Shown here in pieces: positions 33,200-52,437 of a stretch of 64,000 nt of DNA. The notes below the pieces were generated by a model. It was given only the letters and a program-made list of their open reading frames with translations, was not told the origin of the DNA and did not search any database. Both the position numbers and the translations under genes were made by a program. Position 1 is the stretch's first letter. Every line of letters begins with the position of its first letter. This DNA comes from Sphingobium sp. Ant17 (lineage in GTDB: Bacteria; Pseudomonadota; Alphaproteobacteria; Sphingomonadales; Sphingomonadaceae). Where the stretch lies: NCBI RefSeq assembly GCF_000588875.1, contig NZ_JEMV01000023.1, forward strand, positions 3,248 through 67,247, written 5' to 3'.

Positions 33200-34045
33200 G
33201 TGCAAACCCTGTCTGACCTGCCCGCCCTTCGCGCTGCCGTCGCGGCGCTGAAAGCCGACGGAAAGCCGTTGGCGCTGGTGCCGACCATGGGCGCTTTGCA
33301 TGACGGGCATATGGCATTGGTCGAGGAAGCGAAGCGGCATGGGCGGCATGTCGTGGTGTCGATCTTCGTCAATCCCAAACAATTCGGCCCCACCGAGGAT
33401 CTGGACGCCTATCCAAGGCGCGAGGCGAAGGATGCCGCGATGCTGGCGGCGGCGGGCGTGGACCTGTTATGGCTGCCGTCGGTCGAGGTCATGTATCCGA
33501 CAGGCTTTTCTACCAATGTCAGCGTGTCGGGGGTGAGCGAGGGGCTGGATGGCGCGGCGCGGCCGGGCCATTTCGATGGCGTCGCCACCGTGGTCCTCAA
33601 ATTGTTCAACCAGGTGCGGCCCGACGTCGCGATTTTCGGCGAAAAAGACTATCAGCAACTGGCGGTGATCCGCCAAGCGAACAGCGACCTGGACATAGGT
33701 ATCGATATTATCGGTTTGCCGACCCAGCGGGCCGAAGATGGCCTCGCTCTCTCGTCCCGCAATGCCTATCTGAGCGACGCGGAACGCAAGGCCGCGCTGG
33801 CGCTGCCGCGCGCTTTGGGCGAGGCCAAGCGGTTGATGGAGAAGGGCGAGAGTGTCGAATCTGCGACCGCCAAAGCCATGATTATATTGGAAAATAGCGG
33901 GTTCGGGCCGATCGACTATGTCGCTTTGTGCGATGCCGCGACGTTGGCGCCGATGACGGTGCTGGACCGTCCGGCCCGATTGTTGGGGGCGGCGAAGCTC
34001 GGCACGACGCGGCTGATCGACAATATTGCGGTCGAGCCAATTTAG
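33200..34045 (+). CDS. panC: Pantothenate synthetase
   Basis: PanC joins pantoate and beta-alanine with ATP in coenzyme A synthesis. The 281 residues show LVPTMGALHDGHMALV (HIGH-like), VSIFVNPKQFGP, GEKDYQQLAVIRQ (KMSKS-like site later at LALSSRNAYLS) and a normal C-terminal domain. It starts with GTG at 33200 and is monocistronic, with the repeat at 34119 downstream. Confidence 0.95.
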   Translation: MQTLSDLPALRAAVAALKADGKPLALVPTMGALHDGHMALVEEAKRHGRHVVVSIFVNPKQFGPTEDLDAYPRREAKDAAMLAAAGVDLLWLPSVEVMYPTGFSTNVSVSGVSEGLDGAARPGHFDGVATVVLKLFNQVRPDVAIFGEKDYQQLAVIRQANSDLDIGIDIIGLPTQRAEDGLALSSRNAYLSDAERKAALALPRALGEAKRLMEKGESVESATAKAMIILENSGFGPIDYVALCDAATLAPMTVLDRPARLLGAAKLGTTRLIDNIAVEPI

Positions 34046-34118
34046 CGCTTTCGATAGTTAGCTAACTATCTAATAGGGCTATTTTGCTGGGTTTTGGAGC
34101 GTAGGTGCAAGCCATATT

Positions 34119-34193
34119 CCGTTCGCCCTGAGCCTGTCGAAGGGCTTTTCTTCATGAAGAAGAAGGGGGCTTCGACAGGCTCAGCCCGAACGG
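34119..34193. repeat. Dispersed palindromic repeat, copy 1
   Basis: Two inverted arms, CCGTTCGCCCTGAGCCTGTC (34119-34138, continuing GAAGG) and its complement CTTCGACAGGCTCAGCCCGA (34170-34189, continuing ACGG), surround about 25 bases of spacer (TTTTCTTCATGAAGAAGAAG). The same sequence recurs at 43182-43300. It sits between convergent panC and hemJ and can form a long hairpin; it may also act as a bidirectional terminator or a REP-type mobile repeat. Confidence 0.85.
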
Positions 34194-34237
34194 GGGTGGG
34201 GTTGGTTTTACGGTATCGAGCGTCCCGCTGGGGAGGA

Positions 34238-34678
34238 TCAGAACGGCTTTACGATCACCGCGATGACGATCACCGCCGCTGCGACGCCGGGGACTTCGTT
34301 GAGCAGGCGCAATTGGCGGTCGGTCATCGTGCGCTGGCCCCTGGCGAGCTTCTTGGCATAGCTGGCGATCCAGCCATGATAGGCCGACAGGGCGATGACG
34401 AAGAGCAGTTTGAGGTGGAACCAGCCAAAGCTCCACGCGCCGATTTCCACCATCAGCATCAGGCCCAAGACCCACACCAGCACGAGCGACGGGTTGAGGA
34501 TGATCTTGAGCAAACGCTGTTCACGGTCGATCCATTTGCGATCCTCGTCCGAGCCGACGGCGCTTTCCTGATGATAGACGAAGAAGCGCGGTATCATGAA
34601 CAGCCCCGCCATCAGGAAGATGACGAAGATGAGATGGGCAGCCTTCACCCAGAGATAGGCAGCACCGAGATAGGCCAT
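34238..34678 (-). CDS. hemJ: Protoporphyrinogen IX oxidase, HemJ (CopD family)
   Basis: A 146-residue integral membrane protein of the HemJ type, which oxidises protoporphyrinogen IX and replaces HemG/HemY in many alphaproteobacteria. The conserved pattern is visible: WVKAAHLIFVIFLMAGLFM, PRFFVYHQES, the EQRLLKIILNPSLVL stretch, WFHLKLLFVIALSAYHGW and RLLNEVPGV. His residues in the first and third helices are the likely haem ligands. It overlaps the hemE stop by one base, so two haem-pathway genes form an operon. Confidence 0.9.
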   Translation of the reverse strand: MAYLGAAYLWVKAAHLIFVIFLMAGLFMIPRFFVYHQESAVGSDEDRKWIDREQRLLKIILNPSLVLVWVLGLMLMVEIGAWSFGWFHLKLLFVIALSAYHGWIASYAKKLARGQRTMTDRQLRLLNEVPGVAAAVIVIAVIVKPF

Positions 34679-35733
34679 CAGACATGTTCCTCCTGCCGCA
34701 CATAGCTAAGCAATGCTTCGACATGCGCAATGGGGGTGTCGGGCAAAATACCATGGCCAAGGTTCATGATGTGCGGCCGGTCGGCGAAGGCGGCGCGGAT
34801 ATTGTCCACGGCTTGCTCGACCGCGTGGCCGCCGGCGATGAGGGCCAGCGGATCGAGATTGCCCTGCACCGGCATCCCTTGCGGCAGCACATGGTTGGCC
34901 CAGTGGGGATCGACGGTTTCATCGACGCCGATCGCATCGACACCCGTGCCCGCGGCATAATCGGCGAGTTTCGCGCCCGCGCCCTTGGGAAAGCCGATGA
35001 TCGGGATAGTGGGATGGAGCGCCTTCAACCGGCGCACGATCGCGGCATTGGGCGCGATGACCCAGCGTTCGAACTGGAGCGGGGCGAGGCTGCCGGCCCA
35101 GCTGTCGAACAATTGCACCGCTTCGACCCCGGCCTCGATCTGGCCTGACAGATAGGTAACGGTCGCATCGACGATTGCATCAATGAGCGCACCGAAGCGG
35201 GCGGGATCGCCATAAGCGAGGCGACGGGCCGCGCCCTGATCCTTGCTGCCCTGGCCCGCGACCATATAGGTGGCGATGGTCCAGGGGCTGCCTGCAAAGC
35301 CCAAAAAGGTGACGGAGGGGTCGAGGGCTGCCTTCACCTGCCGCACCGTCTCATAGACCGCCTCGAAACGGCTGAAATCGGGTTTCAGGGTCGAGAGGTC
35401 GGTGTCACTGAGGATCGGGGCGAGACGCGGGCCTTCGCCGGTCTCGAACCAGAGATCCTGCCCCATCGCATAGGGGACGATCAATATGTCGGAAAAGAGG
35501 ATCGCACCGTCGAAGCCGAAACGGCGCAGCGGTTGGAGCGTGACTTCGGCCGCCGCCGCACTGTCATAGACGAGTTCGAGAAAGCCGCCTTTTTCGGCCC
35601 GCAGCGCGCGATATTCGGGCAGATAACGCCCGGCCTGCCGCATCAGCCACATGGGCGGCACGGCGGGGCGTTCCCCCCGCAGGACGCCAAGGAGCGGCTT
35701 GGCCACGGGGTCGGCCATCGGGTCGAAGGGCAT
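34678..35733 (-). CDS. hemE: Uroporphyrinogen decarboxylase
   Basis: HemE converts uroporphyrinogen III to coproporphyrinogen III. The 351 residues include the signature PPMWLMRQAGRYLPEYRALR, the catalytic Asp region GAILFSDILIVPYAMGQ, GFAGSPWTIATYMVAGQGSKD and the final NLGHGILPDTPIAHVEALL. The start at 35733 follows a purine-rich AGAAGAGAAGAGAG. The gene borders the candidate origin of replication, as hemE does in Caulobacter. Confidence 0.96.
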   Translation of the reverse strand: MPFDPMADPVAKPLLGVLRGERPAVPPMWLMRQAGRYLPEYRALRAEKGGFLELVYDSAAAAEVTLQPLRRFGFDGAILFSDILIVPYAMGQDLWFETGEGPRLAPILSDTDLSTLKPDFSRFEAVYETVRQVKAALDPSVTFLGFAGSPWTIATYMVAGQGSKDQGAARRLAYGDPARFGALIDAIVDATVTYLSGQIEAGVEAVQLFDSWAGSLAPLQFERWVIAPNAAIVRRLKALHPTIPIIGFPKGAGAKLADYAAGTGVDAIGVDETVDPHWANHVLPQGMPVQGNLDPLALIAGGHAVEQAVDNIRAAFADRPHIMNLGHGILPDTPIAHVEALLSYVRQEEHV

Positions 35734-36029
35734 CGGACTCTCTTCTCTTCTATTAAGATTCAAATAGGAATGTTGGAGATAGTAGGGGCGTTGGCAGCGG
35801 GGTTTATTCGTTGTGCCCGCTTTTGCCAACAGCTTGACTCCGATCCGCCCTGCCTTGCCCGTCCGAGTCCCCTGACTTATCCCCATTATCCACAGGTTGT
35901 GGACGGAAAAGCGGGTCTGTTGGGGGCCTGTGGATAAGAGTCTGGACAGCGTGGAGCGAAAATTATGGGTCCATTCCTCCCCATTTCGTCCCTTGCTTTA
36001 TCCACAGCCTATGCACAGAGATACAGGCC
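35734..36029. other. Candidate chromosomal replication origin (oriC)
   Basis: This 296-base gap between divergent hemE and the PEP-synthase regulator has three perfect DnaA boxes TTATCCACA: 35886-35894 (+), 35929-35937 (-) and 35998-36006 (+). A near-perfect TTATCCCCA (35877-35885) abuts the first box, and a weaker CTATGCACA lies at 36009. There are four GANTC (CcrM) sites at 35757, 35836, 35865 and 35938. An AT-rich part at 35740-35790 could be the unwinding element. Most genes run away from this gap on both sides. The hemE-flanked position matches the Caulobacter origin. This is inference from sequence, not proof. Confidence 0.75.
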
Positions 36030-36857
36030 ATGGCGCGCATCCATCTCCACCTGCTTTCAGACTCCACCGGCGAGACTCTGGAGAATATCGCCAAGGCGGC
36101 GATCGGTCTGTTCGAAAATGTCGATGCGATCCGCCATTTCTGGCCGATGGTGCGATCCGAAGTCCATCTCGATCGGATCATGCAAGAGATTGCCGCCAAT
36201 CCGGGACTGGTCCTGTTTACCCTGACCAATCATCTGCTGCGCAAGCGGTTGGAGGCACGCTGCCGTGCGCTCGGCCTGCCCCATGTCGCGGCGCTCGACA
36301 GCGTGGCCGATGCGCTGTCCAACATATTGGGGCAGGAAACCCGCACCCGGCCGGGGCGCAAACATGTGCTCGACGAAGCCTATTTCGCCCGGATCGAGGC
36401 GATTCAGTTCACCATCGCCCATGATGACGGGGTGGGGCATGAAAATTGGGAGGAGGCCGACATCGTGCTGGCGGGCGTGTCGCGCGCGTCCAAGACGCCG
36501 ACGTCGATCTACCTCGCCAATCGCGGCTATAAGACCGCCAATATTCCGCTGGTGCCGGAATCGCCGCCGCCGCGAAATCTCTACAGCCTCAAACATCCGT
36601 TGGTCGTAGGGCTGACCGTCGGTCCCGAACGGCTGATCCAGATCCGCCGCAACCGGCTGCTTTCGCTCAACCAGGCGCCCGAAACCGCCTATGTCGACAA
36701 TGACAAGGTGCAGGCGGAATTATCCTTTGCCAGGCGCATGTTCGCCGACAATGGCTGGCCGGTGATCGACATGACCCGCCGGTCGATCGAGGAAGCGGCA
36801 GCGGCGATCATCAACCTGTTCAACGACCGGGAATTGGCGGAAGGCGACGCTTTATGA
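36030..36857 (+). CDS. ppsR: Pyruvate, water dikinase regulatory protein (DUF299)
   Basis: A 275-residue bifunctional ADP-dependent kinase / Pi-dependent pyrophosphorylase that switches PEP synthase or PPDK off and on. The N-terminus IHLHLLSDSTGETLENIA and the P-loop AGVSRASKTPTSIYLANRG are diagnostic, followed by NIPLVPESPPP and GLTVGPERLIQIRRNR. ATG at 36030 begins 24 bases after the last perfect DnaA box. It heads a rightward run with maf, aroE, coaE and dnaQ. Confidence 0.93.
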   Translation: MARIHLHLLSDSTGETLENIAKAAIGLFENVDAIRHFWPMVRSEVHLDRIMQEIAANPGLVLFTLTNHLLRKRLEARCRALGLPHVAALDSVADALSNILGQETRTRPGRKHVLDEAYFARIEAIQFTIAHDDGVGHENWEEADIVLAGVSRASKTPTSIYLANRGYKTANIPLVPESPPPRNLYSLKHPLVVGLTVGPERLIQIRRNRLLSLNQAPETAYVDNDKVQAELSFARRMFADNGWPVIDMTRRSIEEAAAAIINLFNDRELAEGDAL

Positions 36858-51295: not shown

Positions 51296-51980
51296 ATGAC
51301 CCGCCGCCACCGCAAAAAACTGCCGACGATCTGGCTGATGACCGACGAGCGGATCGCGGACGCGGCGTTGCTGGCGGCGGTGGCGCGTTTGCCCAAGGGA
51401 CGGGCGGGCATTGTGGTCCGGCATTATCGGACCGAGGGTAAGGCGCGGCGGGCGTTGTTCGAGGCGGTGCGGGGGATCGCGCGGCAGCGGCGGCTGGTGC
51501 TGCTGCTCGCGAGCGACGCGCAGACGGCGGCCGCGTGGCAGGCCGATGGCTGGCATGGGCGCGACACGCAGCAGTTGGCGCGGCCGATGGTGCATAGCAT
51601 GGCCGCGCATGATGCGCGCGAAAATGGCCGCGGCGCGGCGGTGCGGGGCGGACCTCATATTGCTCTCACCCCTCTTCCCAACCCGATCGCACCCCGGCGC
51701 CGCGAGCCTGGGGCGAGCGCGCTTTGCCGCCTTGGCGGGGCAGGCGGACGTGCCGGTTATCGCTTTGGGCGGAGTGAAGCCATGCCATCGACGGATGCTG
51801 CGTGGCATCGGCGCGGATGGCTGGGCAGCAATCGACGGTTGGTGGGTAGCGGCGCGTAGGCCGCGCATGGGTGCTGCCAACCCAGTAGCGCCAAAGTCCC
51901 TGCGGCTGCGAGAACCGTCGAGACAGGACGCGCTGAGAGGACCGTCCGGACGACGATGCTCAAGCGTTATCAACAAATGA
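51296..51980 (+). pseudogene. ThiE/TenI-like thiamine phosphate synthase, frameshifted
   Basis: The first frame encodes LPTIWLMTDERIADAALLA and QTAAAWQADGWHGRDTQQLA up to HDARE; the second frame (to 51980) encodes MAAARRCGADLILLSPLFPT, RSHPGAASLGRARFAAL and DVPVIALGGVKPCHRRMLRG. Together they match the TIM-barrel ThiE/TenI family. The join lies in the A-run at about 51622 (CGCGAAAATGGCC), where one A is extra or two bases are lost. The C-terminal extension after AAIDGWWVA looks non-homologous, perhaps because the island junction starts close by. The enzymatic assignment is moderate. Confidence 0.72.
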
Positions 51981-51984
51981 AAAA

Positions 51985-52006
51985 TGGTGCCAGAAGAGGA
52001 CTCGAA
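51985..52006 (-). other. tRNA-Leu 3'-end-like sequence, candidate att site
   Basis: On the minus strand TTCGAGTCCTCTTCTGGCAC (followed by CA) looks like a tRNA T-loop, T-stem, acceptor and CCA end, followed by TTTTT. It is one base short of a canonical end; adding a G (TCTGGGC) gives a 7-base acceptor strand as in bacterial tRNA-Leu. No tRNA body lies 5' of it, so it is a 3' fragment. Such fragments mark the distal end of elements integrated into tRNA genes. A small inverted repeat AATTGAG/CTCAATT adjoins it (52006-52025). Confidence 0.5.
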
Positions 52007-52437
52007 TTGAGAATTTACTCAATTGTTTTAAAATCTTAGTCGTCGAAAATGACTTGTGTGGATACCCTCAATTGTACCCGCAAGCAAAAAAGCAGCGCGG
52101 TGCGATGCCCATTTTCGCCGCTCTGACAATTTTTTTCTATCTATCTGCGTCTACCATAATCCACAGCAATCTGCACATGACGAACGTGAATTTGCATATC
52201 ACCATTGCTTCGACGCGGCCTTAGGGCAGTTCGCGACCAAGCCAAGTCGTTCACCAAGGTTGTAGCGAGTGTCCGGATCGGACAGGAGCCGTCCTTCGGC
52301 TAAGAGCGACAATCGGCGCACGGTCCTTCATGGCCGGTGGAATGGCCGGACCTTGGGACTTTCCCGCCAGACAGCTTCCAAGATCGGAACGGTCGAAAGC
52401 CGCCGTTTCTCGGTGTCACAACCGTTCGGTTTTGACT
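52007..52437. other. Non-coding start of the accessory region
   Basis: About 430 bases, AT-rich up to about 52200, with no supported gene. It contains a small hairpin near 52270-52305 and, at 52413-52438, a degenerate copy of the palindrome found upstream of the metal-efflux operon. Confidence 0.45.

Follow-up and report, generated by a model that had tools for sequence, protein, structure and literature searches.

A very likely chromosomal replication origin between hemE and ppsR in a draft Sphingobium genome

The window analysed here is a 64-kb stretch of a 5.24-Mb draft Sphingobium genome in 199 contigs. At positions 35734-36029 it holds an intergenic gap of 296 bp with a GC content of 53%, compared to 61-65% in the surrounding 2-kb stretches. 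The left boundary gene is hemE (34678-35733, minus strand, with the start at 35733 picked by eye), which encodes uroporphyrinogen decarboxylase and was matched by TIGR01464 (384 bits, cut-off 303) and PF01208. The right boundary gene, ppsR (36030-36857, plus strand), encodes a member of the DUF299/COG1806 family (PF03618, 306 bits; NF003742, 321 bits, cut-off 225) and is predicted to be a regulator of PEP synthase or pyruvate phosphate dikinase. The product scored 149 of 350 bits against the narrower PpsR equivalog NF049928, which is below the cut-off; ppsR is the name used here. On the 3' side of ppsR lie a Maf-like gene, an aroE-like frame recognised by eye, coaE, dnaQ and a ptsN-like gene that scored below its cut-off. 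Rfam gave no match on the 64-kb window at gathering scores, and no tRNA genes were found in it. The original prediction had placed a candidate oriC in this gap at a switch of gene direction, and such a switch is present, with hemE on the minus and ppsR on the plus strand.

Three perfect DnaA boxes, TTATCCACA, were found in the gap at 35886-35894 (box 1, plus strand), 35929-35937 (box 2, minus strand) and 35998-36006 (box 3, plus strand), and together they cover 121 bp. A first-order model of the window gave an expectation of 0.12 such boxes per 64 kb and 0.0005 in the gap; for three of them in a stretch of 121 bp at any place in the window, the figure was ~3e-9 by our own arithmetic. This agrees with the initial claim that the grouping is far beyond chance. 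With up to one mismatch allowed, the window held 12 sites compared to 4.7 expected. The whole draft genome contains 12 perfect boxes, three of them in the gap, and about 10 were expected from the window's rate. Nowhere else in the draft genome do three perfect boxes occur together, and the sole other close pair is on another contig (C21), discussed further below. In a search of about 0.75 Mb of distinct sequence from Sphingobium sp. 15-1 (G119), into which about 40 kb was entered twice, the only 296-bp cluster of at least three sites with no more than one mismatch was the hemE-ppsR gap.

PpsR relatives were detected in 115 of 119 genomes of the family. The gaps examined were those of the 30 best-scoring of these 115 genomes, our own included, and of the closest 80 of at least 574 named loci as ranked by PpsR, giving 110 loci. 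Removal of four identical sequences left 106 gap sequences, and two more same-contig pairs differed only in their start points; with six genomes thus read twice, 104 gaps are distinct. The divergent arrangement hemE-gap-ppsR was present in all 110 loci (104 distinct) when the alignment across sphingomonads suggested at the outset was carried out. The 106 gap sequences contained 311 DnaA sites with up to one mismatch compared to 7.3 expected from dinucleotide shuffles. At least one such site was found in 102 of the 104 distinct gaps, and a perfect box in 68; the two gaps that lack any such site and the 36 that lack a perfect box count against the reading as an origin. In the 29 gaps of the Sphingobium type, most boxes stand at equal distances from the ppsR start, with single boxes lost or changed in several. 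Mean column conservation was 0.95, 0.96 and 1.00 at boxes 1, 2 and 3, compared to 0.73 outside the boxes considered, and these values were reached by 29, 17 and 3 of the 287 9-mers of the gap. The near-expected number of perfect boxes genome-wide would be in keeping with 9-mers that cluster by chance in neutral intergenic DNA, an explanation made extraordinarily improbable by the excess of sites across the gap sequences and by box 3, which is invariant across all 29 gaps of the Sphingobium type.

A weak DnaA-box-like sequence, TTATCCCCA (35877-35885, plus strand), directly abuts box 1, as had been described. The pair itself is therefore real; its role as the defining feature of the site is not upheld, since the pair was seen in exactly this form in only 2 of the 104 distinct gaps. 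As a 9-mer, TTATCCCCA is not specially conserved (mean 0.86, reached by 96 of the 287 gap 9-mers), and TCCCC precedes box 1 in 18 of the 29 Sphingobium-type gaps. On the other side of box 1, the gap alignments revealed a degenerate inverted partner, TTGTGGACG (35897-35905, minus strand). In many Sphingobium the sequence three bases on from box 1 is TGTGGATGA, which forms an inverted pair with it there; in the window this partner is degenerate.

The hemE side of the gap was examined by nearest-neighbour stability. Stability in the window was lowest over the two 40-bp stretches that begin at 35745 and 35746, which bears out the AT-rich side noted earlier, and we designate 35745-35785 as the predicted DNA unwinding element. 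In 96 of the 104 distinct gaps, the least stable 40 bp were predicted to fall in the third nearest to hemE. Origins of the BUS type (DnaA-trio) have several 3'-GAT-5' triplets between a box and the AT-rich stretch. Here, TAGTAG at 35780-35785 provides two TAG triplets, so at most two DnaA-trio-like triplets, as read by eye and without a control. The lead of the gap in predicted instability is narrow: 40-bp stretches at about 52000 are nearly as unstable. Close by, at 51967-52165, the window has another group of DnaA sites, weaker than that in the gap and made up of three with one mismatch within 199 bp, and this spot adjoins the end of collinearity with G119 (51847). The co-occurrence of sites and unstable DNA at this second spot was counted against the reading of the gap as oriC.

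Next to the unstable stretch, the alignments and conserved runs defined a block at 35790-35840, GTTGGCA...CGGGGTT...TTGCCAACA..TTGACTC, that includes an inverted repeat. Read by eye, this block resembles a minus-strand hemE promoter, with a putative TTGGCA at 35824-35829, a spacing of 17 bp and a putative TAAACC at 35801-35806. Its left arm aligns with the DnaA-box-like GTGGATA in some other genera. The inverted repeat TTGGC..GCCAA was found in 26 of 30 Sphingobium-type gaps compared to 10 of the 76 others, and for the latter reason it was rejected as a general origin element; it is perhaps part of the hemE promoter or an operator. The promoter-like block and the divergence of hemE and ppsR would also suit an alternative in which the boxes belong to a divergent promoter of hemE and ppsR that is under DnaA control, with DnaA acting as a cell-cycle transcription factor and the true oriC lying elsewhere. 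In Caulobacter, hemE transcription is described as important for replication (PMC8959179), which would also fit. We consider this alternative improbable, given the uniqueness in the genome of three perfect boxes together and the skew and parS data from relatives that follow.

Since our own genome is divided among 199 contigs, GC skew was read in relatives. Four with one-contig, presumably circular chromosomes were each sampled at 20 x 20 kb, about a tenth of each chromosome. In these profiles, a type of check put forward with the original prediction, the minimum fell in the interval containing ppsR in four out of four, where the chance of this is 1 in 20 per relative. A minimum away from the gap, named at the outset as an outcome that would refute the prediction, was thus not seen in these sampled relatives. 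The permutation p of the skew amplitude was <0.0002 in G090, 0.001 in G089 and 0.005 in G102; in G119, the sole Sphingobium of the four, it was 0.43, so that the amplitude there was not above permutation. A minimum could not be placed from the 64-kb window alone or from a contiguous 400-kb stretch around the G119 locus, where the skew was too noisy.

Sites resembling parS (up to two mismatches) were also located relative to ppsR, with distances from our own arithmetic. Among the matches listed, 19 of 20 one-contig relatives had at least two such sites 4.9-16.4 kb off on the hemE side, and the exception, G119, had its parS 33-54 kb off on the ppsR side. The parS pattern is loose, and the reversed pattern used as a control gave 0-5 matches per genome among the matches listed; clusters were therefore counted and single matches were not. 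One relative (G034) also has perfect parS sites far from ppsR, again among the matches listed. In our own genome, a trio of parS-like sites is on a contig other than that of the gap. The frame of its dnaA gene is open, and the product matches solved DnaA structures including the DNA-binding domain 1j1v (E 1.2e-29). No perfect DnaA box was found on the contig that carries dnaA (C83); a position of dnaA near the origin is stated not to be conserved in Sphingomonadales (PMC8116508). The skew minima in four of four relatives and the nearby parS in 19 of 20 (among the matches listed) argue against a promoter with its oriC elsewhere. Together, the skew, parS, DnaA-site clustering and dnaA data make it very likely that chromosome replication in this Sphingobium starts in the gap at 35734-36029. 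The boxes, the conservation of the gap and the gene context likewise support the original oriC interpretation.

The gene context of the gap resembles that of known origins. In Caulobacter crescentus, the experimentally identified origin, Cori, is reported between hemE and a COG1806/DUF299 gene (PMC1914354), so the earlier remark that the Caulobacter origin flanks hemE can be extended to both boundary genes. Cori likewise combines several DnaA boxes with an AT-rich region (PMC1914354, PMC8959179), although its strong boxes are given as TGATCCACA (PMC4285127) rather than TTATCCACA. The origin of Rickettsia prowazekii is also placed between hemE and a COG1806 gene, and is far richer in AT, at 82.6% (PMC1914354). 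Within the family, an oriC close to hemE with conserved DnaA boxes and a putative DUE was predicted by Ori-Finder for Sphingopyxis granuli TFA, and a similar position is predicted for most Sphingomonadaceae in DoriC (PMC4741004); a similar hemE-near oriC is described for Novosphingobium sp. PP1Y (PMC4059872). The origin proposed here is thus not new in kind. What differs is the genus and, compared to those predictions, the addition of sampled skew and parS in relatives and of GANTC controls.

Five GANTC sites were found in the gap, one more than the four initially counted, compared to 0.43 expected at the window's rate. The sites at 35836-35840, 35865-35869 and 35938-35942 are kept in 27, 28 and 20 of the 29 Sphingobium-type gaps, respectively, and those at 35736-35740 and 35757-35761 are each present at the same columns in 3 of the 29. 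Every one of the 106 gap sequences has some GANTC, with 479 in all compared to 147 expected from shuffles. The density in the 104 distinct gaps was 14.5 per kb, compared to 0.7-2.5 per kb in five samples of other ORF-free DNA, a control that takes chance ORFs as coding and so covers only part of the true intergenic DNA. Clusters of at least five GANTC in 296 bp occur three times in the window and seven times in the G119 pieces, the gap being one of them in each case; GANTC clustering is therefore not unique to the gap. We found no report of GANTC density at sphingomonad origins in a literature search that barely targeted GANTC, which is weak evidence of absence.

In contrast to Cori, with its five CtrA sites, the window gap contained no CtrA site, full or relaxed, and it also differs from Cori in having no match to the loose IHF consensus WATCAN5WTR. 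CtrA sites have reportedly been seen at the Rickettsia prowazekii origin. Full CtrA sites numbered five in the 104 distinct gaps, one in each of five gaps, two of them from Sphingobium (L042, L062); this is above the ~0.6 expected, which is half of 1.2 because the symmetrical motif was counted on both strands. The relaxed form was found 36 times, in 26 of the 106 gap sequences, compared to 19.7 expected. IHF matches in the 106 gap sequences were at chance level (12 compared to 11.2 expected), which counts against the reading as an origin.

The E. coli oriC, which is flanked by genes other than hemE and ppsR, has clustered GATC methylation sites, and GATC, Dam and SeqA gate re-initiation there. 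In contrast, the 106 gap sequences that are enriched in GANTC are depleted in GATC (93 compared to 182 expected). The two kinds of origin are alike in their TTATCCACA boxes and AT-rich unwinding side (PMC4285127). By analogy with known origins, DnaA would bind the strong boxes at 35886, 35929 and 35998 and their weaker neighbours and then form oligomers in the direction of hemE; there, the DNA predicted to be least stable, at about 35745-35785, would melt and receive the helicase. The GANTC (CcrM) sites may couple initiation to the methylation state. Sources disagree on whether CcrM acts directly at Cori: a modelling paper states that full methylation is needed there (PMC2217572), and another source states that CcrM could act only indirectly (PMC10073500).

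The surroundings of the gap vary within the family. Proximity of mipZ had been offered as a mark of the origin, and a gene for MipZ is indeed ~3 kb away (PF09140, 5.3e-109). Because ParA-like proteins are picked up by PF09140 too (it gave matches in 14 of 14 control genomes), only the top match per genome was used. This best match was near ppsR in 1 of 20 relatives, the Sphingobium, and 40 kb to >1 Mb from it in the other 19, and mipZ was rejected as an origin marker. In G119, mipZ is 3 kb from ppsR, and collinearity of the window with G119 extends from 12.4 to 51.8 kb. In G090, G102, G084 and G089, the gidA-mnmE block and the adjoining parA share the strand of hemE and are some kb away from it, with the gap and ppsR coming next. 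In G119, the gidA-mnmE block is about 27-35 kb off on the ppsR side and on the strand opposite to hemE. The MnmE, GidA, GidB and ParA genes of our own genome are on contig C27. Comparison of the window at about 34000-34240 and of contig C27:36001-66000 (L219, L220) with G119 is most simply read as a ~29-kb inversion carrying oriC, relative to the parA-gidA-mnmE block, within Sphingobium; it is also possible that the gidA-mnmE block itself moved. Of the 80 named loci, 22 have panC within 3 kb upstream of ppsR (19 of these also have mipZ). PpsR identity to the protein of the window is 89% or more in 24 of the 80, and these include all 22. The proximity of mipZ thus appears to be a consequence of rearrangement in Sphingobium, and mipZ is not an origin marker here.

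The separation of the par-gidA-mnmE block from oriC in Sphingobium, and the existence of bipartite origins as described elsewhere (PMC4285127), would be compatible with a bipartite or larger origin, of which the gap would be only the core and further elements would be needed elsewhere. Boxes and unstable stretch are together in one gap of about 290 bp, and a second cluster is absent from the about 0.75 Mb of G119 that was searched; we regard such an arrangement as very improbable.

The sole other close pair of perfect boxes in our own genome led us to a noncoding element at contig C21:30006-30455 (L217:3006-3455, minus strand). The element is 427-450 bp long and conserved in Sphingobium, with 21 copies in alignment A1, from which one of 20 flanks (L240) was left out because no terminator was found in it. 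Its 5' edge consists of the tandem DnaA boxes TTATCCACA-N-TTATCCACAG. It holds a conserved CGACTC (GANTC) stretch and a predicted hairpin in which several pairs show changes on both sides (10 of 40 predicted pairs in all), and it ends in a hairpin that resembles an intrinsic terminator. Tandem boxes with up to two mismatches were found in 52 of 94 genomes of the genus, and the reversed pattern in none. The core motif identified nine more copies in genomes that lack a tandem match; among the matches listed, each has at least one box (up to one mismatch) in place and two keep both boxes. Outside the genus, matches to the 19-bp core were at the level of the reversed control. Rfam at gathering scores gave only tRNA matches for 11 element loci, and at E up to 1 gave no credible match to the element for two loci.

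The element is just downstream of a DUF985 cupin gene in 31 of 52 cases, and 11 of 22 element flanks include a tRNA-Thr. In the 16 genomes with both on one contig of known length, it lies 34-49% of that length away from ppsR by our own arithmetic when the contig is taken as a circle. One genome (G191) has two weak element matches, one of them only about 150 kb from ppsR. The element could be a DnaA-controlled RNA gene, and it is possibly a more novel lead than the oriC itself.

A broader reading would join these observations: sphingomonad origins would be a variant of the hemE origin that mostly lacks CtrA sites and is gated by methylation, and the C21-type element a second, RNA-producing DnaA-responsive site. 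The methylation state set by CcrM at the dense GANTC sites would then act as the re-initiation gate, and the element would work in the same circuit. This reading is doubtful, its odds being lowered because CtrA sites are present in a small number of gaps and because CtrA, the loss of which is described as harmless to the growth of Sphingomonas melonis, still influences replication there (PMC8116508).

With the gap very likely being oriC, these results place the origin in a draft Sphingobium genome. They also suggest that a hemE-ppsR origin is common to the sphingomonads examined, most of which lack Caulobacter-type CtrA sites there. Should the high density of GANTC be of functional importance, a direct action of CcrM methylation on alphaproteobacterial initiation would be testable in sphingomonads.
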